DNA of 64,000 bases, taken from positions 558,001 to 622,000 of the forward strand of contig JAFLCX010000001.1 in the NCBI GenBank assembly GCA_017302635.1, given 5' to 3'. A program made the position numbers and the translations under genes. A model generated the notes under the pieces. That model saw only the letters and a program-made list of their open reading frames with translations, made no database searches and had not been told where the DNA came from. Every line of letters starts with the position of its first letter. The stretch's first letter is position 1. Below are positions 28,543 through 44,086 of this stretch, piece by piece. Source of the stretch: Hyphomicrobiales bacterium (GTDB lineage: Bacteria; Pseudomonadota; Alphaproteobacteria; Rhizobiales; Beijerinckiaceae).

Positions 28543-30513
28543 ATGAGCAAGCAGAGGCAGACCTTGAAGCGCAAGATCACAGCCATCATGGCGGCCGACA
28601 TTGCCGAATACACCCGCATCACGGCCGAGGATGAGGAAGAGACGCTCGCACGGCTCGAATCCTATCGCGAGGTCTTCGATGATTTCGTGAAACGGGCCGG
28701 CGGGCGCGTGTTCAACACCGGCGGCGACAGCATCATGTGCGAGTTCGCCAGCGCGGTGGAGGCCACGCGCTGCGCGATCGACATTCAGGAATCGCTGCGC
28801 ACGCGAAATTTTGCCTATCCTCCCAATCGGCAGATGCATTTCCGGATCGGCATTTCGATTGGCGACGTGGTCGAGCGCGATGGCGATCTTCTGGGTGATG
28901 GCGTCAACATCGCCGCGCGGCTCCAATCGCTCGCGGAACCCGGCTCGATCTGCGTCGCCCGCAATGTGCAGGAGGCCGTGCAGAACAAGATCGCGCTTCC
29001 GTTTGTCGATCTGGGACACCGCGAGGTGAAAAACCTGCCTCATCCGGTCCACGCCTTCCAGATCGAGATGGGCGGCAGGAAGCCCAAAGTCGCTGCGCCA
29101 GCGATGCCAAAGCCGCTCTCCGGCGCCCTTGGGCTGCGTCCCTCGCCACGATGGGCCGCCCTGTGGCTCGCCGCCGGGATCGCGATCGTCGCGAGCGGCA
29201 CCGCACTCTACTGGATGGGGCGGGCTGATCAGGTGAGGGTGCAGCCGATCGCAACCGCGCCACCCCAGCCACAGAACCCGCCTGAAACGCAACCCGCGGC
29301 CGGTGCCACGGTCGTGGTCACCGAAAACCTCTCCCCCTCGCAAGCTTTCGAGAAGCTCGCGAAATCCGGAGGCCTGGTGAAAGATGCCTCCAGCGCCGCC
29401 GAGCTTTATCACAATGCGCGGACATTCGAGGCCCGCGGAGAGAGCGCCAATGCGAGGCGCGATTATCTCGCTCTCGCCGCGCTCGATACGGATTACATCG
29501 ACCCTCTTCTGCGGCTCTCAGCCTTGATCCGCGCGCAGGACGGGCGCGCCGGTGCGCGCGAGATTTTCACTGAACTTGCCAAGGGCAAAAGCCGTGCGGC
29601 TGCCCTCGTCCACGCCCAGCAATATGAAGGGGCCGAGCGCACGAGGCGTCTGGCCGCTCTGGCTGAAGCGAATCCGGATTTTGCGCCGGCCCAATATCTG
29701 TTGGCTATCGAACTGGGCGAAGACCGCCAGAACGCGCAGACCATTGACGAGCGAAGGCGTGAGCTTGCTGCGTTGTCGCGTTTCCTGTTGGCCGAGCGCG
29801 AAGGGAGGCTCGTTTCAGGCTTTCTGGATCAGAGCGTTCTCGCTCAATGGCTGGATCATGCGCAAAAGCGTGAAGCGGCTGCGAAGACTTTCTTTGCGGA
29901 GGGACGCGACCGGATTTCCGCGCAATTCATGCGCTCGAATACGGGATGGATCGCGGCAATCACCTTGCCGGAGGCCGCGACCCGAATGGAATATCGCCTC
30001 GACAGCAAGAACGAGTTCCGCACCACGGGGTTCCTGCAAGCGCTCGATCCGCGCACGGGTCGGCCGATGCCGAATCCCGGTTTCGAGTTGCCACCTCAAC
30101 AGGGCGCGACAGAGATTGCGCTGCGCTATCTCGATGCCAATGGCGCTGCGTCCCATGAAACGATCATCACCTTCGATCCGAAAACCGCCCTTCAACGGGG
30201 CATGCGCGACATACTCGAGCGCTTTTCGACATCCTGGCTGGCCTTTGGATCCGGGCAAAACAGCCAACTGCTGTATTTCACGCATCTCGTCAGCTATCGC
30301 TGTGCGATCGAGAAGGTGGAGATCGGCTATAACGGAAAGCCGCCGCAGGAGGTGATTTCTCTACCGCCCTGCGATCCCGCCAATCCCTACGCCGTTCCGG
30401 CGAACGCCCGGCCATACATCACGCTTCGGTCGGATGCGGAAAATGCGTCCATCCGCATCACCTTCGTGGGCGGCGATATCTCCGACATCAAGACCTTCCA
30501 GCGTCCCCGCTGA
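28543..30513 (+). CDS. Membrane-bound class III adenylate/guanylate cyclase
   Basis: 656 residues. The N-terminal cytosolic CHD domain (about 10-180) has both metal aspartates (MAADIAEYTR, Asp19; NTGGDSIMCEF, Asp62) and the transition-state Asn122 and Arg126 (GDGVNIAARLQ). A single transmembrane helix (about 205-227) follows. A 430-residue periplasmic part begins with TPR-like helices (AAELYHNARTFEARGESANA, DYIDPLLRLSALIRAQDGRA) and ends in a region I do not recognise. It probably makes cAMP in response to an envelope signal. The divergent Crp-like gene is the natural effector but is frameshifted. Confidence 0.87.
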   Translation: MSKQRQTLKRKITAIMAADIAEYTRITAEDEEETLARLESYREVFDDFVKRAGGRVFNTGGDSIMCEFASAVEATRCAIDIQESLRTRNFAYPPNRQMHFRIGISIGDVVERDGDLLGDGVNIAARLQSLAEPGSICVARNVQEAVQNKIALPFVDLGHREVKNLPHPVHAFQIEMGGRKPKVAAPAMPKPLSGALGLRPSPRWAALWLAAGIAIVASGTALYWMGRADQVRVQPIATAPPQPQNPPETQPAAGATVVVTENLSPSQAFEKLAKSGGLVKDASSAAELYHNARTFEARGESANARRDYLALAALDTDYIDPLLRLSALIRAQDGRAGAREIFTELAKGKSRAAALVHAQQYEGAERTRRLAALAEANPDFAPAQYLLAIELGEDRQNAQTIDERRRELAALSRFLLAEREGRLVSGFLDQSVLAQWLDHAQKREAAAKTFFAEGRDRISAQFMRSNTGWIAAITLPEAATRMEYRLDSKNEFRTTGFLQALDPRTGRPMPNPGFELPPQQGATEIALRYLDANGAASHETIITFDPKTALQRGMRDILERFSTSWLAFGSGQNSQLLYFTHLVSYRCAIEKVEIGYNGKPPQEVISLPPCDPANPYAVPANARPYITLRSDAENASIRITFVGGDISDIKTFQRPR

Positions 30514-35287: not shown

Positions 35288-36664
35288 TCATGCCGCAGAG
35301 ACCGCAAACACGGCCGGGCCCTGCGCCTTGTGATTGCCCGCGAATGTTAGCCGGTAATGCGCCGCAACCGTCTGGGCCGGAAGGAGCATGCTCAGCCGAT
35401 CAATGGCAGGGCCGTCATAGGCAATCGCGAATTCGCCGACCTTCCTGAACTTCTCCACCGCATCATCCTCGGCCCGTTCGAGCACGAACTGGCCCGAGAG
35501 CACCAGTCGACGGTCGCTGCCCGATGCAAGTGCTTGCGGGGAGATCGCCATCACGATCTCGATATCTGCACCCACCGGAACGACAGGCGCCTCGACGGAG
35601 AGCACAAGCGGCGGAGCCGGTGGTCTGGCTGCCTCGATTGCCGCCCCTTCATTCCCACCCAGCAACCGCACGAAGACCTTCCGAAACGGGTCTCCTTCAA
35701 ACACGGTTGAATGCTCGTTCACCACCATCTGCCGCTGCCCCTGGCGCGGCAAGGCGGAATAAAGCGGCACTGTCCCGTCGCCACCATCCGGTGTGAGGGT
35801 CTTTTCGCTGCGCTCGTGATCGATCGGGCCTGTGCCCTCCGCGAAAACGTTCACGCGACTCACCGTTCGATGGCCGGTGCCTGCGAAATAGAAATACCGC
35901 ACGCCCTTCGGGGGTGCGCCGGTGTTCAGCACATCATGCACCGCCATGGCACGCTTGAGATTGGTGGTTGATAGCCCGAGCCTCTTCGCCGTCGCGGGAT
36001 CAAAGATATCGAGCCCGGCGAGGTCGGCGCTCGCCTGATCCCAGCAGCAGAGCTCAGCCCGCGGAGGCAGAAGCTGATAGCCTGACGGGTAGGCCGTGCT
36101 CGCCGAGAACTTGATGAAATCCGAGCCACTGACGCCGAGCGTGGGATCGAGCCCCAGCACCCGCGCCAGAGCCAGAGGCGCTCCGAGATGCGGCACCGCG
36201 AGTGCCACGAACTGATCAATTTTCCCGAACCATTTCCGGCTCTTGTATTGGCCGCTTTCAAGCAGCAGCCGCGTGATCAGCCCGCCCATCGAATGCGCGA
36301 CGATGGATATTTTCGTCGCATTCTCAGCCTTGATGGCGTCGAGTTTCGCCGCCAGCACATCGACGGTCTTGAAGAGATCCTGTCGCCAGTCATAGGGGAA
36401 GAGCACCAGCCTTTTCGCTCCCCCGCCCTCGACAAAACCAAGATCGTTCAGAAGATCCGTGATGGTGCTGTAAAACTGGAAACACAGCACGCTCGAGATC
36501 AATGTGGTCGGATAGACCGCCGGTTTCATCAAGGCGTCTATGCGCTTGTAGCCGAACTTGGTTTCGAACGGCGTCGGCGGCCAGACCTCCTCGACCGAGC
36601 CATCCGGCTGCTTCAGTGCGAGTCGCGTTCCCATAATTCCGGGAATGAAAACAACGATATGCAT
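35288..36664 (-). CDS. LCAT-like alpha/beta-hydrolase (lipase/acyltransferase)
   Basis: 458 residues, cytosolic by sequence (no signal peptide). The alpha/beta-hydrolase core has an oxyanion-type start VVFIPGIMGTRL, LFPYDWRQDL (conserved in lecithin:cholesterol acyltransferase relatives), a nucleophile elbow IVAHSMGG (Ser125), GGDGTVPLYS (Asp296) and VVNEHSTVF (His318). A C-terminal domain of about 110 residues, rich in beta strands, follows. The triad is intact, so it is probably an active phospholipase-type enzyme. It lies 35 bases downstream of the protease-nuclease gene on the same strand and is likely co-transcribed. Confidence 0.85.
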   Translation of the reverse strand: MHIVVFIPGIMGTRLALKQPDGSVEEVWPPTPFETKFGYKRIDALMKPAVYPTTLISSVLCFQFYSTITDLLNDLGFVEGGGAKRLVLFPYDWRQDLFKTVDVLAAKLDAIKAENATKISIVAHSMGGLITRLLLESGQYKSRKWFGKIDQFVALAVPHLGAPLALARVLGLDPTLGVSGSDFIKFSASTAYPSGYQLLPPRAELCCWDQASADLAGLDIFDPATAKRLGLSTTNLKRAMAVHDVLNTGAPPKGVRYFYFAGTGHRTVSRVNVFAEGTGPIDHERSEKTLTPDGGDGTVPLYSALPRQGQRQMVVNEHSTVFEGDPFRKVFVRLLGGNEGAAIEAARPPAPPLVLSVEAPVVPVGADIEIVMAISPQALASGSDRRLVLSGQFVLERAEDDAVEKFRKVGEFAIAYDGPAIDRLSMLLPAQTVAAHYRLTFAGNHKAQGPAVFAVSAA

Positions 36665-36699: not shown

Positions 36700-38880
36700 T
36701 CAATGATGCCGGCGCCCCACATTCGCGCGGAGGGCGACGTCCGGCCCGCGCTCATCGAACTGATCGGCTTCAAGAATATTGGCCCCGAAGCGGATGCCGG
36801 CCTGTTCGCCGATCACAGCGAGCGGCACGAGAAAACGCTTGAAAGCCGCGGGCACGACAAATTCGGTCGTCTCCACCTCCGACAAATCCTGTTCGAGCAT
36901 GAAGCCGAAGGCCGCGATACCGCTGCTGATCCGGGCGATGATCACCTTCCAGAATTTCAACGGAATCTGGACCATACGCCGTTCGCCTTGCCCGAACTGG
37001 CCGAGAAAGCGCGGGTCATTCGGGCCGAGCACAGGACCTGCGAAGACGCAGAGTCGTTCGCTCGCGGCTTGCGAGAGAACGACATTTTCGAGGTCGCCCC
37101 AATTGTCTTTCCCGCGCGCCGACTGATTGAACCCGGAGACCTGCGGCGAGCAATTGGTGACGTGATACGTGTCACCATTGGCGCGACGCAGAACCGCATA
37201 GCTCTTGCCCCAGGCCACATCCTCGCGCCGCACGATGTGACCCTTGTCGAATGAGGCGTTGTCGCGTGTGAAGAACACATCGGGGAGCTGGAAGCGTGCA
37301 TCCATGCGCGGATCAAGAAACCATCTTTCCTGGTCGTTCTCGCCCAGCCCTGTCAGCCCCTTGCGGGTGTAATCCTTGCCGGGTTCAGGCATCTTGAGTT
37401 TTTTCTCAGCCGTGACATTCGCTGCCGTGATGAGGGCCAGTCGTCGCTTGGCATGCATCTGCACCGAGAAATTCTCGTAATCGAGCCGCAAGCCGCCGTT
37501 GAGGGTTTTCGCAAGAACGGCGGCGCTTGTCGGCTGCGGAGCAGGCACAGCAACGCCGAGGAAGGCCTCGTCATAGCCACGGCGCGAGGCATAGTTCGTA
37601 TCGCGGACGGGCTCGACCATCTTCTCGGTCGCCGCCGCCAGAAGCTGCTGACCACTGAGCGCCACCGAAAGCGAGCCCCCCGCACCCGGCTCGATCCGGA
37701 CGGTGACGGGAATGGTGACATCCATCGCCTGCAGAGCGGGGGACACGGCCGCCTGCCCTGTCGGCCTTTCGGAAGGAGGCTGGCCCTCTTCGTCCAGTCG
37801 GGCCCAATAGCCGGTCCACGATGGTGGCCCACCCGGTTTCGCCGCTGGGTCGAAACTCACCCCGGCATCCACCACACGCGGGTCTGCCGCAAGATCGGCG
37901 GTGGAAACCGCGAAATTGCGCCGCAAATACTCGCCACCGAAATGCAGCCCGATGACCTTCCCGGTCTCGATATGGATAACCCCGGCACCCGAAACACCTC
38001 CGAGAGTTGAGCAATCATGTGTCGGGACGTTGACCAGCTTGCCGTAGCTTTCAGTTGATTGCCGCTCGCGCAGTTTTCCGGGCTGAAGCTGCTTGATGCC
38101 AAAGCGGTTGTCATAAAGACGTGACTGCACATCCGGATCGTTGCGCGGATCGAAAGCCGGATAGCCGATCACCGCGATCTCGTGTTTCTCGAAATTTTCG
38201 CTGGAACCTGTCGAAAGGATCAGCGGTTCTGCAACCAGCCCCGCGACCTCGAGCAGTGCCATATCCCAGTAAGGATGCACCATGCGCAAGCCGGTGATGG
38301 CGGGCGCGGGATTTTCGTCGTTGTCGGGCGCGAAGGAGCGGCTGAACCCCGGTGAAATGCCCGGCACGAAGGAAAGGCCCCGATCCCCCACTCCGCTCAC
38401 GAAAATCTCGGCAACATGGCGGTTGGTCATGATGAGGCCCGGCGCCACCACGAACCCCGTGCCGCCATAAGGATACTCCGAGCCCTTGACCTCGATCCGC
38501 CCGATCGATTTCGCGGCACGGGTCAGTCTTGCCCGGATAGGCTCGTCGTTGAGGTGAAGCCAGAGCTTGTGGGTCGCGGTGTAGGTGCCGCCCTGCAGCG
38601 GCATCACTGGCCGCTTATCGGGGATGATGATGGCTTCGAGCCCGTAGCGGTGCTCTTTCGAGAGTTCCTTGCCTGAGGCCACCGATTCGATCGCCGCGTT
38701 GAGCGTTTCCGGCCTCATTTGTGGTTGGAGGCGCTCGAGGCCTGCAAGACTCTCCTGCCCTTTCCGCGCGACTTTCATGGCTTCGACCGCGTCGGAATCG
38801 ACCCGCATCGCCTCGACTCCGTTGTCATCGGCAATGTCGCACAAATAGGCCGCGATCCGAGCCGAACGATCAGTGCTCAT
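36700..38880 (-). CDS. Trypsin-like serine protease fused to DNA/RNA non-specific endonuclease
   Basis: 726 residues. An N-terminal helical part (1-100) is followed by a trypsin-like domain: GGTGFVVAPGLIMTNRHVAE (His155), YWDMALLEV (Asp206), LGGVSGAG (Ser297). A Pro-rich linker (350-440) leads to a NUC/EndA-type nuclease: MHAKRRLALITAANV, FDKGHIVRRED (DKGH at 545-548 replacing DRGH, with the catalytic His), VTNCSPQ (metal Asn) and WGDLE. Both catalytic centres look intact. No signal peptide, so the nuclease would act inside the cell, perhaps held in check or released by its own protease. Divergent from the EAD-trypsin operon. Confidence 0.88.
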   Translation of the reverse strand: MSTDRSARIAAYLCDIADDNGVEAMRVDSDAVEAMKVARKGQESLAGLERLQPQMRPETLNAAIESVASGKELSKEHRYGLEAIIIPDKRPVMPLQGGTYTATHKLWLHLNDEPIRARLTRAAKSIGRIEVKGSEYPYGGTGFVVAPGLIMTNRHVAEIFVSGVGDRGLSFVPGISPGFSRSFAPDNDENPAPAITGLRMVHPYWDMALLEVAGLVAEPLILSTGSSENFEKHEIAVIGYPAFDPRNDPDVQSRLYDNRFGIKQLQPGKLRERQSTESYGKLVNVPTHDCSTLGGVSGAGVIHIETGKVIGLHFGGEYLRRNFAVSTADLAADPRVVDAGVSFDPAAKPGGPPSWTGYWARLDEEGQPPSERPTGQAAVSPALQAMDVTIPVTVRIEPGAGGSLSVALSGQQLLAAATEKMVEPVRDTNYASRRGYDEAFLGVAVPAPQPTSAAVLAKTLNGGLRLDYENFSVQMHAKRRLALITAANVTAEKKLKMPEPGKDYTRKGLTGLGENDQERWFLDPRMDARFQLPDVFFTRDNASFDKGHIVRREDVAWGKSYAVLRRANGDTYHVTNCSPQVSGFNQSARGKDNWGDLENVVLSQAASERLCVFAGPVLGPNDPRFLGQFGQGERRMVQIPLKFWKVIIARISSGIAAFGFMLEQDLSEVETTEFVVPAAFKRFLVPLAVIGEQAGIRFGANILEADQFDERGPDVALRANVGRRHH

Positions 38881-39246
38881 GCGAAATCTCCAACGGCGAA
38901 CAGGCTATCACGACAAATAAATTAAATTAAATCATGATGATATGAGAGATAATTATCGCAAATTTCGATCAAACTCAAACAACAAGCACGCTGATGAAAT
39001 CACGATTTATTTAGGTCCACAAGATCAGTCTGCATCTTTCGTAATCCAATGCATGCCTGTTTTTGTTCATCACTATACCATTTTCGAAAGCAAATATTCG
39101 TCAGCGTACAATTCGACAATGAATTCTGGCAGGGCACCCGCATCGCCCAGCAGTGAAGAAGGTTGCGTCAGCGCATGATGCTGACAATAGTATTGCCAAC
39201 AGAGTGGCGCCCCGCAACCGGGTCGCCGGGGGCGAGCACGATCACA
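38881..39246. promoter_or_regulatory. AT-rich divergent intergenic/promoter region
   Basis: 366 bases between two protease genes that read outward. The left 200 bases are clearly AT-rich, unlike the GC-rich surroundings (AAATAAATTAAATTAAATC near 38915, ATTTATTTAGG near 39005). A 78-codon open frame here has no coding character. It most likely holds both promoters. The composition would suit H-NS/MucR-like silencing and suggests recent acquisition. Confidence 0.5.
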
Positions 39247-40359
39247 ATGCCGACATTGTCGCCGCAAGAAAACGATCAACTGATCCAGATGCTGCGGGAC
39301 TCGCTCGATATGCGTCAGTTGCGTCGCTGCCTGTATCTCGCAACCGGCGAGCCGCTCGACAAAAAATATCTCGCCGAAGGCCAGACGCTGAAAAACGCAC
39401 TGATCGACGTTGTAACCGGGCTGGAAAGGGACCAGATCACGGATCAGTTTCTGGATGTCATTTATCGCGAGAAGCCGTTCCAGTTCGAATTGCGAGCCTT
39501 CATCGCGAGGCTCTACCCGGCCATTGCGGCCGGAGAACCGTTCGAGCGGCGCGCTTTTGCCGTTCAGGAATCGGGGCGGCCGTCGCGCCGGGCGGATGCA
39601 CAGGATGAAGGACCAGCTGGCGGGGTTCCGGCTCTCCAGCGCCTGATCAAACCGGGGCTGAGCCACAAGGACCTGCGTGTCTGGCTCGATCGCATGGAAG
39701 CGATCGAACGACAGGTTTGTCGGATCGAGGCCAACGGAGCGGCTTTCGGTACGGGGTTCCTCGTGGGCCCCAAGGCCGTTCTCACCAACTGGCATGTCGT
39801 GCAGGAAGCGCGGGATCAGGGCGTCGACTCAGCTCTCGCCTGCCGGTTCGACTTCAAGCGTCTGACCACCGGGCAGACCGATGGTGGCACGCTCATCCCC
39901 ATCTCCACGATATTGGCCGAAAGCCGGTGCAGCGAAGCCGAGGAGAAGGGCGACGACCCGGATAGCCCGCCGCCCAAACCCGACGAACTGGACTACGCGC
40001 TGATCGAGTTGCCGGCCCCTCTGCCCGATCGGGGTTATATCCGGCTCGGCACGCCGCCACCCCTGAGGGCGGGTGCTCCGCTGATCATCGTCCAGCATCC
40101 GGAAGGCGATGCCATCCGCTTCGCTATCGACACAGACGCCGTGATCGGCATGATGCACAGCAACCTGCGCTTGCGCTATACGACAACGACAGAGCCGGGC
40201 TCCTCGGGCTCGCCATGCCTGACGATGGACCTCGATATCGTGGCGTTGCACCATCTGGGTGATCCGCGGCGCGTCGCACAGTTCAATCAGGGCATCCCGA
40301 TCGGGCTCGTGCGCGAATCGATCATCACCAGGAACCTTGAAGACCGGCTGGGGATTTGA
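39247..40359 (+). CDS. EAD1-like helical domain fused to trypsin-like serine protease
   Basis: 370 residues. Residues 1-95 form a helical domain (NDQLIQMLRDSLDMRQLRRC, LIDVVTGLERDQITDQFLDV, REKPFQFELRAFI) whose pattern matches effector-associated domain 1 (EAD1), an adaptor seen in bacterial conflict systems. A linker leads to a trypsin-like domain: GTGFLVGPKAVLTNWHVV (His183), DELDYALIEL (Asp249), TEPGSSGSPC (Ser320). No signal peptide. ATG at 39247 with GGGGGCGAG upstream is chosen; in-frame ATGs at 39175 and 39178 exist. EAD domains recruit effectors to sensors by like-with-like contacts; this role is inferred. First gene of a three-gene operon. Confidence 0.8.
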   Translation: MPTLSPQENDQLIQMLRDSLDMRQLRRCLYLATGEPLDKKYLAEGQTLKNALIDVVTGLERDQITDQFLDVIYREKPFQFELRAFIARLYPAIAAGEPFERRAFAVQESGRPSRRADAQDEGPAGGVPALQRLIKPGLSHKDLRVWLDRMEAIERQVCRIEANGAAFGTGFLVGPKAVLTNWHVVQEARDQGVDSALACRFDFKRLTTGQTDGGTLIPISTILAESRCSEAEEKGDDPDSPPPKPDELDYALIELPAPLPDRGYIRLGTPPPLRAGAPLIIVQHPEGDAIRFAIDTDAVIGMMHSNLRLRYTTTTEPGSSGSPCLTMDLDIVALHHLGDPRRVAQFNQGIPIGLVRESIITRNLEDRLGI

Positions 40360-40362
40360 GTG

Positions 40363-41712
40363 ATGCAGCTTTCAACCAGTTTCCGGCTTTCCGATACCGA
40401 CATCCAGAAATGGCGGGCAACGCTGTCGCGTGACCGCAACGGCCGGGGCTCTTATGATCTGGACCTTCATACGAGGAATGCCCTTGCCCGTTATCCCGGC
40501 CAGCTGGGGCGCGGAGATACGTTTCAGGAAAAGGCAACTCCGATCGAGAGGCTCGATTACTGCCTCGAGCAAATCTATCTGGAAAACAAGGATTTTTCGC
40601 GCTCATTCCTGTTGCGCGTTGTCGAAAGCTGCTGGTCCGACGAAGCGATACGGATCGAGATCGTGGATGAGACACCGGCACTGGTTCATCCCGATCCCGG
40701 CTTCGGGACCATGATCCAGACGATCAGCGCAGCCATCACCGCCATGCTCGCCCGACTGCCCGCAGCGCCGAAACGCCGCGACATTGGCGATGCCCGGATC
40801 TATCGACTGATCTGCACCAACAGGGATCAGATCCTGACGCTCAACCGGGCGCTGGTGGCACTGGAAGGAGAGAAAGCGTTTCACGACGCCCTCCAGCATT
40901 TGCAGGTTCAAGGCGATGAATGGCTTGATGCTGCACCCCCGGACGATGCCGAGAAGCCCGGCCCGTCTGCAGTTCTCGCGGGCCTCGCCCTCGGCGCCTC
41001 ACAGGCAATCCATGCCATCCTGCCGAAACTGCCGGCGCGCGACAGTGTGGCGGCACAGCGCTGCCTCGCGGTGCTGGATGATGCCAGAGTGCGGCTCGAC
41101 AGCGGCAAGCCAGATGAGGTCGAACTGGCCGTCAATGCGCTGCGCGCCATGCTTTTTCGGGAGTTGCCGGAAATTTCGGAAGGCATGTTCCAGACATGCC
41201 GCGATTTGCCCTTGCGGGAAATCCGCGCAGTCTTTGCCGGACAGGACGCAGTGATTGTCGCATTGGTGGAATTCTGCGACCGGTTGCGACGGCGGATCAT
41301 GGCCCATTCGCTCTGGCAGACCTGCGATCTCAAGGTAACGGCCATCGAACTGCTTTTTGCCAACCCCACGCCCACACTGTTTGATGATTTACGGAACCAT
41401 ATCAATGTTTTGCGTGTGAGTCTGGCCGCCCTGCTTGAAATACCCGAGCAGCAACCGGGACCGGTCGAAGAACTGGGGGACCGACTCTACGAATACGGCG
41501 AGAGCCTGCCGGAGGGTGCCGAACCGGAAACGCTCGATGTCGCGCCGGCCAGTTGGCGCAAGGCACTGAGCGATCTGCGCGAGACGGTGCGGTCAAAATT
41601 CATGGAAGAAAATCACAAGTTCACATCCGATATTCAGGAAATTCTCGCCCTGAATGAGCCACTGCGGCAGATGCTTCGCCGCGTTTCCCAATTCTGTGAT
41701 CAGAACCTCTAG
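40363..41712 (+). CDS. Large helical protein of unknown function, in EAD-protease operon
   Basis: About 449 residues, nearly all predicted helix, with no signal peptide or transmembrane segment. A separable N-terminal part (about 1-115: DIQKWRATLSRDRNGRGSYD, IERLDYCLEQIYLENKDFSR) could be another adaptor domain. The rest contains helical stretches (VAAQRCLAVLDDARVRLDSG, VALVEFCDRLRRRIMAHSLW). GTG at 40360, directly after the upstream stop, or ATG at 40363 starts it, so translation is coupled. I recognise no family. Its position suggests a scaffold, sensor or substrate of the protease. Confidence 0.7.
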   Translation: MQLSTSFRLSDTDIQKWRATLSRDRNGRGSYDLDLHTRNALARYPGQLGRGDTFQEKATPIERLDYCLEQIYLENKDFSRSFLLRVVESCWSDEAIRIEIVDETPALVHPDPGFGTMIQTISAAITAMLARLPAAPKRRDIGDARIYRLICTNRDQILTLNRALVALEGEKAFHDALQHLQVQGDEWLDAAPPDDAEKPGPSAVLAGLALGASQAIHAILPKLPARDSVAAQRCLAVLDDARVRLDSGKPDEVELAVNALRAMLFRELPEISEGMFQTCRDLPLREIRAVFAGQDAVIVALVEFCDRLRRRIMAHSLWQTCDLKVTAIELLFANPTPTLFDDLRNHINVLRVSLAALLEIPEQQPGPVEELGDRLYEYGESLPEGAEPETLDVAPASWRKALSDLRETVRSKFMEENHKFTSDIQEILALNEPLRQMLRRVSQFCDQNL

Positions 41713-41714
41713 CC

Positions 41715-43325
41715 ATGGGCTCTCAAACCTCCGCCCTTTCCGCTGCCGACCCCGTCATCGACCTGCGACGCAAGCATCAGGCGTTTCTGGCGCGCATCGG
41801 GACCAATCCGCCGGGCGCAGACGAGATCGCGGCCTTCATGGACGAGTTGCAGTCCGCCGGACGCTTGCTGCCCGACACGCCCGAGGACAAGCGGCGGAGC
41901 ACGGTTCGCAACATGCTGTTCTACTGGGCCGGCGATGCGATCGCGCGGGGGCATCGACCCAAGAATGCCCCGCTGCCCCAACTCGCGGATTTCGCGGGGG
42001 AAAGTGCGGGAGCAACTCATGAATCAGGCATCGTTCCGGAAAGGATTGCCGACGACAAGGCAGAATCGGGCAATCGCGAACCGGCGGCGGAATCTGCGGG
42101 GAGCGCCCCTCCAGAAAGTGTGCCGGTCAGTTCCCCCGAGAAGTCGCAGGGTGACAAGCCCCTCACCGATATCGAAGCTATTGCCCGGGCGCGCATCATC
42201 CTGCGCTATGGCGGCTCTGCGCGACAATGGAAACAGACCCCGCCCGAGAAAAGGGCAGATTACCTGCTGACAGGGAACCGCCTTGCCGAGGCCTCGCTTT
42301 ACGTGCAGGACGACCCCGACATCCGCGCCCATGTCGAGGCCAGCGAGAAGGCTCGTGACGCTGCGCGGGATGCGGAGATCACGCGGCGCAGCAAGCTGCA
42401 GCGGCAGAGGATCGGCATCCTGACAGGATTGGTGGTTTTCGCTTTTTCCATGGTTGGCGCGTTGTGGTGGAAATCGATCCAGTTGCAGGAGGCGCTCGAC
42501 GAAGCCGAAAAGCAACGCCAGGCCGCAGTGGCGGCGCTCAGCGCGCGCGACAGGGCCGATCGCGAAAAGGCCGCAGCCTTCGAGGTTCTCGAGGACCCGG
42601 AGCTCCGGCTGCGACAGAGCCAGCGCCAGCAAGCCGACGCGCCGCCGACCGCGAGCAATATTTCGGAGGCCCCGCGACGGCCCGCTCCACCGGCAGGAAA
42701 GCCGGAAGACGTGCCGGTGCCCATTGCCGTCGCCGAACCCTGTTCGGGCTATCTCTGGCTGGGCAGCCCGTCCGACAGTCGCCTTCTGAACGGACAATCT
42801 CCGGCAGCGCTCAAGCCGGGCGACAAGGTGACGATCAGCCTCGCCAACGACATTCGTCTGCGCGAGGCGCCACCAAGCTTCAATTACCAGATGGGGCGCC
42901 AGAATGGACTGGTGCCGGGGGGAAGCTCCGTCACCATCGAATCCCTCCTCACTCCGTATCAGCGCCCCAGTGGCGCGCAGTATTGGGCTCAGGTTCTGGT
43001 GCCTCGGCAGTTCTGCACCAGCGTTTTTGTGCAGTTCGCGGGTGCGATGCCGGCCCAACTCGATGCGATAAAGGGCGAACTGCTCAATCTGGGCGTACAG
43101 ACTCCCGAGGCCGAGGAATTGTCGAGCGCGCGCGGCAAGGCCGAAGTGCGCTATTACTGGGCATCTGATTGGCCGGTTGCACAGCAGGTCGCGACCGCGC
43201 TGGGCAAATTCACCAAGGATGGCAAGCCGCTCCGCCTGACGCCCCTGACCGATTTTCCACCGGCCGCGAAAGCCAAGGCGACCACAATCGAGGTTTGGCT
43301 TGATCTCGATCTCTTGAAGCCGTGA
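41715..43325 (+). CDS. Single-pass membrane protein with periplasmic SH3-like domain, in EAD-protease operon
   Basis: 536 residues. The cytosolic N-terminus (about 1-85) is a small helical domain (IDLRRKHQAFLARIGTNPPG, MLFYWAGDAIARG), then a disordered Ala/Pro/Glu stretch. A membrane helix lies at about 234-254 (IGILTGLVVFAFSMVGALWW), followed by a coiled coil (QLQEALDEAEKQRQAAVAAL). The periplasmic part has an SH3-like domain (SGYLWLGSPSDSR, DIRLREAPP, YWAQVLVP) and a C-terminal LytR_C-like repeat (AEVRYYWASDWPVAQQVATA). It starts 2 bases after the upstream stop. It could anchor the system in the envelope and sense wall damage. Confidence 0.7.
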   Translation: MGSQTSALSAADPVIDLRRKHQAFLARIGTNPPGADEIAAFMDELQSAGRLLPDTPEDKRRSTVRNMLFYWAGDAIARGHRPKNAPLPQLADFAGESAGATHESGIVPERIADDKAESGNREPAAESAGSAPPESVPVSSPEKSQGDKPLTDIEAIARARIILRYGGSARQWKQTPPEKRADYLLTGNRLAEASLYVQDDPDIRAHVEASEKARDAARDAEITRRSKLQRQRIGILTGLVVFAFSMVGALWWKSIQLQEALDEAEKQRQAAVAALSARDRADREKAAAFEVLEDPELRLRQSQRQQADAPPTASNISEAPRRPAPPAGKPEDVPVPIAVAEPCSGYLWLGSPSDSRLLNGQSPAALKPGDKVTISLANDIRLREAPPSFNYQMGRQNGLVPGGSSVTIESLLTPYQRPSGAQYWAQVLVPRQFCTSVFVQFAGAMPAQLDAIKGELLNLGVQTPEAEELSSARGKAEVRYYWASDWPVAQQVATALGKFTKDGKPLRLTPLTDFPPAAKAKATTIEVWLDLDLLKP

Positions 43326-43345: not shown

Positions 43346-44086
43346 TCAGGGCTGAAGGAAAGCAAGGAAGGCAGGGTCGAGCTCGTCATCGCGGTTCCAG
43401 CGGTGCCGGACAACAGCGATGCCTCCGGCATTGATGATCGCGTTTTCATCGCCAGGCGTTGTCGTGTGCGGCCTGCCGCGCCGGATGCGCCATGTGATCG
43501 AGTCATCATCGCGAGCGACGATCTCCGATGCATGCCCGATCTTGTCACGACCGATGCGCGCGGCGGCCGCTGGCGCGGGCAAGGTTGTCGGCAGATTGAC
43601 GCTCAACCACCCGCCATCAACCAGCCAAGCGGAACGGTTCTCCCACAAGCGCCGGATCAGCGCCTCGAGAGCCGAGATTTCAGTCTCGCCCATCGCCCCG
43701 TCCTTGGTGCGGGAAAATCCGATCGCGGGTACGCCCCAGAATGTGGCCTCACGCGCGATAGCGAGCGTGCCGGAGTAGGCGGCATCCTCGCCGGCATTGC
43801 GCCCGTCATTGACACCCGAGAGGACAAGATCGGGCGGATTGTCCCTCAGCACGAGTGTCATGGCCGCGATCACGCAATCCGCCGGGCTGCCTGAGCAGGA
43901 AAATTGCTGCGGTGCGCGGCGTGTGAGCGTGAGATCGCGATCAAACGACAATTGATGGCTGGCAGCCGTCCATTTTCGATCCGGGGCTACGATCCACAGG
44001 TCGCGCGAGATGCGCGCCGCCGCTGCCGAGAGAAATGCAAGGCCCGGAGCATCAAATCCGTCGTCATTGGCAAGCAGGATGCGCAT
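43346..44086 (-). CDS. surE: 5'/3'-nucleotidase SurE
   Basis: 246 residues. SurE removes phosphate from nucleoside 5'- and 3'-monophosphates and short polyphosphates, needing a divalent metal. The metal site is intact: MRILLANDDGFDAPGL (Asp8, Asp9), then VAPDRKWTAASHQLSF with the Ser, and VLSGVNDGRNAGEDAAYSGT with the metal Asn. Unlike the usual serS-surE-pcm context, here it is the last gene behind an ABC importer and an MBL hydrolase (6 bases after the latter), suggesting a catabolic role. Confidence 0.92.
   Translation of the reverse strand: MRILLANDDGFDAPGLAFLSAAAARISRDLWIVAPDRKWTAASHQLSFDRDLTLTRRAPQQFSCSGSPADCVIAAMTLVLRDNPPDLVLSGVNDGRNAGEDAAYSGTLAIAREATFWGVPAIGFSRTKDGAMGETEISALEALIRRLWENRSAWLVDGGWLSVNLPTTLPAPAAAARIGRDKIGHASEIVARDDDSITWRIRRGRPHTTTPGDENAIINAGGIAVVRHRWNRDDELDPAFLAFLQP

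Follow-up and report, generated by a model that had tools for sequence, protein, structure and literature searches.

A trypsin/V8-like protease fused to an EndoG-type nuclease beside an EAD1-trypsin cassette in a Hyphomicrobiales bacterium: a probable core protein of a trypsin/NUC conflict system

The main finding of this analysis is that the open reading frame at 36700-38880 on the minus strand of the window, by which we mean the whole stretch of 64,000 nucleotides that was analysed, encodes from an ATG start a protein of 726 aa in which a trypsin/V8-like protease is fused to an EndoG/Serratia-type nuclease, an architecture like that of LypC and of the core protein of the predicted System 3. 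On balance we favour the reading that this fusion forms the core of a trypsin/NUC conflict system, that is, of an accessory protease cascade with an EAD1-trypsin unit. Its membership in the trypsin/NUC conflict-system class is highly probable, and the exact order of the cascade, taken jointly with the nuclease as main killer, falls a little short of an even chance. Judged from the sequence, the joining of the two enzymes is real and far beyond chance, because both Pfam domains score above their cutoffs, Trypsin_2 at residues 140-312 (E 1.8e-14, 55.1 bits against a cutoff of 27.6) and Endonuclease_NS (PF01223) at residues 460-702 (E 8.2e-30, 104.5 bits against a cutoff of 23), and because the AF2 model resolves two domains with clear fold matches. 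In this model (mean pLDDT 78.7) the two well-predicted domains flank a disordered stretch, with pLDDT below 50 at residues 369-416. The protease half (span 86-344) matches V8 glutamyl endopeptidase with Z 24.0 and an rmsd of 2.3 over 200 residues, and the nuclease half (span 430-713), which has a beta-beta-alpha-metal fold, matches CPS-6/EndoG with Z 21.4 and an rmsd of 2.7 over 223 residues. V8 glutamyl endopeptidase and EndoG/CPS-6 resemble the two halves in fold and active-site layout, but they are separate proteins, secreted or mitochondrial. An earlier note on this DNA had described a trypsin-like protease joined to a NUC-type nuclease and lacking a signal peptide, and both statements hold: hydropathy reveals neither a signal peptide nor a transmembrane segment, and an intracellular protein is the best reading. 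Most of the best aligned relatives carry both domains, and a genome scan gave no second Endonuclease_NS match elsewhere in the genome.

The protease part (residues 100-345; 37846-38583, minus strand) contains the triad H155, D206 and S297, which the earlier note had proposed to be intact and which is invariant in our homologue alignments of both 20 and 33 sequences, in agreement with the V8 fold match. The top PDB matches of a profile restricted to the trypsin part are V8 glutamyl endopeptidases (E 1.3e-17), and T292 and H313, which align with the V8 S1-pocket residues Thr and His, are likewise invariant (33/33). In V8-type enzymes this Thr-His pair goes with a preference for Glu at P1. From these pocket residues the fusion protease is predicted to cut after Glu, and such a predicted Glu-specific protease within a trypsin-NUC fusion is possibly new.

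The nuclease part (residues 431-711; 36748-37590, minus strand) carries D545-K546-G547-H548, N585 and E598, as assigned from the EndoG alignment, Pfam, the alignment of relatives and the fold match. The earlier claim of a complete nuclease site therefore stands for DKGH at 545-548, which is intact, but not for Asn576 and Glu608. In the alignment to EndoG, N585 (FNQ) corresponds to the metal-ligand Asn and E598 (WGDLE) to the conserved Glu; N576 is another conserved Asn (TNCSPQ), separate from the metal-ligand position, and E608 is variable among relatives. Among the 33 homologues D545, H548, N576 and E598 are invariant, and G547 and N585 are conserved to at least 90%. The Lys of DKGH had also been regarded as unusual, which our alignments contradict: of the 98 relatives that align at position 546, 61 have Lys, 34 Arg, one Phe, one Val and one a gap, so that DKGH is normal and indeed the majority form in its own branch of the family. 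No autoinhibitory element is visible in the fusion sequence.

The two parts are connected by a linker (residues 346-430; 37591-37845, minus strand), of which residues 369-416 are predicted to be disordered. The linker is otherwise poorly conserved, and a strand-like motif at residues 386-399, MDVTIPVTVRIEPG (37684-37725, minus strand), stands out, with the family form TxxxPLxITVxLG. Its most telling columns are 391 (Pro in 30 of 33 homologues), 392 (Leu in 31 of 33, Val in the window protein) and 399 (Gly in 29 of 33). A loose form of the pattern occurs in 72 of 96 linker windows, compared with a mean of 6.4 and a maximum of 15 after shuffling, figures that serve as a guide only, as shuffles ignore relatedness. 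The motif is present in most trypsin-NUC fusions, across several phyla. This conserved strand-like motif is possibly new, and a cleavage site, a gate or a docking strand are possible roles for it. The Glu residues of the linker are E364, E365, E371, E397, E419 and E423.

Another finding is a cassette on the plus strand, divergent from the fusion. Its first gene (39247-40359) encodes a second protease of 370 aa, here called EAD1-trypsin (Trypsin_2, E 8.4e-18), whose triad H183/D249/S320 is invariant in its family alignment; the ATG at 39247 gives MPTLSPQ, and the longest ORF opens at a TTG at 39163. EAD1 is matched in 9 of 11 members of this family, at best with 7.8e-16, and on the window's own member it falls below the Pfam threshold (E 0.02-0.12). 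The second gene (g450; 40360-41712) encodes a protein of 450 aa that is predicted to be helical throughout and whose EAD1-like N-terminus aligns with that of EAD1-trypsin in hhalign profile comparison (95%, E 3.8e-8). It has no Pfam family in the scans run and no PDB match below E 0.001, and this EAD1-like partner family without a Pfam match is possibly new. Residues K172, H175, Q182, H316, W319, Q320 and D323 are invariant in 12 sequences of this helical protein. The third gene (g536; 41715-43325) encodes a protein of 536 aa with an N-terminal module and, from hydropathy, a single transmembrane segment near residues 233-251; its C-terminal part is of the LytR_C-like kind, seen in the homologue of locus L041 at E 0.1 only. 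We set aside the idea that this protein is an nSTAND1 remnant, as the module before the transmembrane segment has no significant match to nSTAND1 proteins, and a stretch resembling the linker motif was dropped, as it is not visible in the same L041 homologue. The region between the two protease genes (38881-39246, no strand assigned) likely serves both of them as a regulatory region.

Beyond the window, about a dozen relatives have the set of protease, g450 and third gene close to their trypsin-NUC gene (loci L041, L043, L049, L051, L052, L053, L054, L059, L062, L065, L066, L069 and L074), where the third gene varies and encodes a transmembrane protein, a transmembrane-NUC protein or an nSTAND1 protein. 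In three of these loci the cassette membrane proteins (L051:13925-16618, L053:12721-15384 and L054:2489-4972) have a NUC domain without the DRGH motif and are possibly pseudo-nuclease partners of the nuclease; the DRGH motif is present in the transmembrane-NUC protein of L065. Other relatives have, in place of the cassette, a Lyp-like set made up of an AAA_16/NB-ARC-type protein and a bDLD2-trypsin. No NTPase sensor or STAND NTPase was found in the window genes that were scanned, a genome-wide search for nSTAND1 gave none above cutoff, and the genome has no bDLD2 match at E 1.

It is already known that protease-nuclease architectures are widespread in bacteria, where they are thought to trigger cell death or defence. 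For example, System 3, a prediction found mostly in alphaproteobacteria, combines NucA with trypsin-like peptidases and is proposed to deploy NucA through a proteolytic cascade (eLife 2020, PMC7159879). The two are described there as fused or in one operon, and in the window the trypsin-like peptidase and NucA (Endonuclease_NS) are fused; also described is an EAD1-trypsin paralogue, which corresponds to the neighbour's family (9/11), with the window member below cutoff. Also System 3-like are the proposed cascade and an optional S8 peptidase in relatives (PMC7159879). The STAND NTPase of some System 3 operons, in contrast, was not found in the window cassette, and g450, the one-transmembrane partner and an LCAT-like lipase, all present in the window, do not occur in the running text of that paper (PMC7159879). 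The general logic of protease-activated effectors, to which the earlier note had appealed, is proposed for the trypsin/NUC class in that text as well. At least 558 GTDB representative loci carry relatives of the fusion, with best matches mostly in alphaproteobacteria. The gene itself is present in 1 of 17 genomes of the genus and 23 of 297 genomes of the same order. Relatives are also found in 78 plasmid records, all under 60% identity, and none was found in viral contigs by tblastn with six peptide patterns. This patchy spread fits an accessory, horizontally moved system. PADLOC returned weak matches only, all on the protease domain of the fusion. As to the surroundings, a SurE-like gene (43346-44086, minus strand) has no close copy in the genus, the SurE-like copies of other members being about 40-50% identical to it, and a second copy lies on contig 2 of this genome. 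At 28543-30513 the window encodes a class III adenylate/guanylate cyclase with a transmembrane segment, beside a divergent ORF for a CRP-like regulator; this pair also occurs near several Mesorhizobium loci, but both families are common and we judged the association coincidental.

According to the reading that we favour, on a sensed threat an intracellular protease cascade would probably kill or lyse the cell or degrade nucleic acid. The one-transmembrane protein and the EAD1-like helical protein would sense or scaffold, and EAD1 domains may recruit the second protease by like-with-like contact. The activated EAD1-trypsin, and then the fusion's own protease, would cleave the linker, or other targets, after Glu residues, and this cleavage would free or switch on the nuclease and perhaps the lipase. 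EAD1-trypsin is likely the trigger of the cascade, and because this second protease is conserved next door it is an equally good or even better candidate for the cutter than the fusion's own protease. Possible but doubtful is a variant of the trypsin/NUC system free of any NTPase, in which the g450 scaffold and the one-transmembrane protein would replace the NLR/STAND sensor and the linker motif would link cleavage to release of the nuclease by serving for recognition or gating.

In a different account, which we consider rather unlikely, the work is done by the protease, the nuclease domain mainly serves folding or dimerisation, and a further effector kills the cell, for example the LCAT-like lipase or peptidoglycan enzymes. 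Much of the evidence for it comes from LypC of C. crescentus, which by its published description has, like the window fusion, an N-terminal trypsin-like peptidase, a flexible linker and a C-terminal endonuclease, the catalytic serines being almost equally placed (S296 in LypC, S297 in the window). In that organism overproduction of LypABC is toxic, and the LypC S296A substitution blocks GTA-linked lysis, while H471A and N505A leave lysis unaffected (Nat Microbiol 2026, PMC13236601). The LypC endonuclease domain interacts weakly with itself and is absent from the C. endophyticus homologue (PMC13236601). The partners of LypC differ, however, being a CARD-trypsin-ATPase (LypA) and an NLR (LypB), neither of which was found beside the window gene, where the trypsin next to the fusion has an EAD1-like domain and lacks an ATPase, in contrast to the CARD/bDLD2-trypsin-ATPase arrangement of LypA. 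The closest relative of the window fusion, in Bosea sp. BK604 (L040:7986-10190, 60%), has DKEH and Asp at position 585 and keeps its triad. Since LypC nuclease mutants still lyse and the Bosea protein keeps its triad beside an altered nuclease site, it is possible that the nuclease is neither essential nor the main effector. Close to it in Bosea is a second fusion (L040:3258-6968) of 1236 aa, whose C-terminal region looks metallophosphoesterase-like by eye. Against this account, nearly all relatives, like the window protein, have an intact nuclease site (of 98 aligned, D545 is kept in 96, H548 in 96 and N585 in 95), which implies that selection usually maintains catalysis.

Lipase and lysozyme-like neighbours, which also recur, point in the direction of another effector. 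In the window, an LCAT-like alpha/beta-hydrolase of 458 aa, a possible phospholipase (35288-36664, minus strand; LCAT, E 4.1e-12 in Pfam), opens 35 bp past the stop codon of the fusion on the same strand, and its AHSMG nucleophile, GDGT and NEH motifs are present by eye. By BLAST, no intact close homologue of this gene was found in other loci; in Bosea a frame-broken LCAT-like remnant that shares the VVFIPGIMGTRL stretch lies directly downstream of the fusion, which speaks against the lipase as the killer. A hydrolase ORF lies downstream of the fusion gene of L099, a weak hydrolase match is fused within the L033 member, and L042 has a GDSL-lipase-like neighbour. Because of the Bosea remnant and because hydrolase or lipase genes recur beside other members, it is plausible that the lipase functions together with the fusion. 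On the conjugative plasmid pRphaN671d of Rhizobium phaseoli (L121), a trypsin-NUC relative has as neighbours a trypsin-like gene, a MoxR ATPase with a SAV_2336-type protein and a patatin-like phospholipase gene.

We regard as unlikely the latent-nuclease idea of the earlier note, by which the fusion's own protease would cut its own linker and free an otherwise inactive nuclease, with no need for a second protease. The presence of protease and nuclease in one chain, the disordered linker with its Glu residues and strand-like motif, the predicted V8-type Glu specificity and the existence of relatives without an obvious second protease in the immediate locus all agree with self-release, but EAD1-trypsin is a conserved neighbour, the inactivity of the joined nuclease is only assumed, and the nuclease residues of LypC are dispensable (PMC13236601). 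Self-release has a precedent in logic, but the LypC results, from the closest relative under experimental study, caution against taking the nuclease as the main effector. In Hachiman, AVAST, Lamassu, DRT and caspase-nuclease loci a trypsin- or caspase-kind protease activates a nuclease, as with the MBL-fold pro-nuclease that is proteolytically activated by trypsin-like partners (Science 2025, PMC12799240). The Hachiman/AVAST-type nuclease is MBL-fold and encoded by a separate gene, whereas that of the window is EndoG-type and fused to its protease. Finally, the fusion is very unlikely to be a secreted or scavenging enzyme for nutrient acquisition outside any conflict system: many Endonuclease_NS proteins, such as Serratia nuclease, are secreted, but the fusion has neither signal peptide nor transmembrane segment, its linkage to EAD1 proteins is conserved, relatives are also linked to bDLD2 and STAND proteins, and its distribution is patchy and accessory.

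In summary, this analysis removes DKGH as a false lead and corrects the residues to be mutated from N576/E608 to N585/E598. The interest of the locus lies instead in the cassette, with its EAD1 proteins and no NTPase found among the genes scanned, in the linker motif and in the role of the nuclease. The gene is placed in a death or defence class that is known mainly from prediction and has one studied relative. How such cascades switch on can be approached in this class through the linker motif, the Glu specificity predicted for the protease and the EAD1-like partner family.
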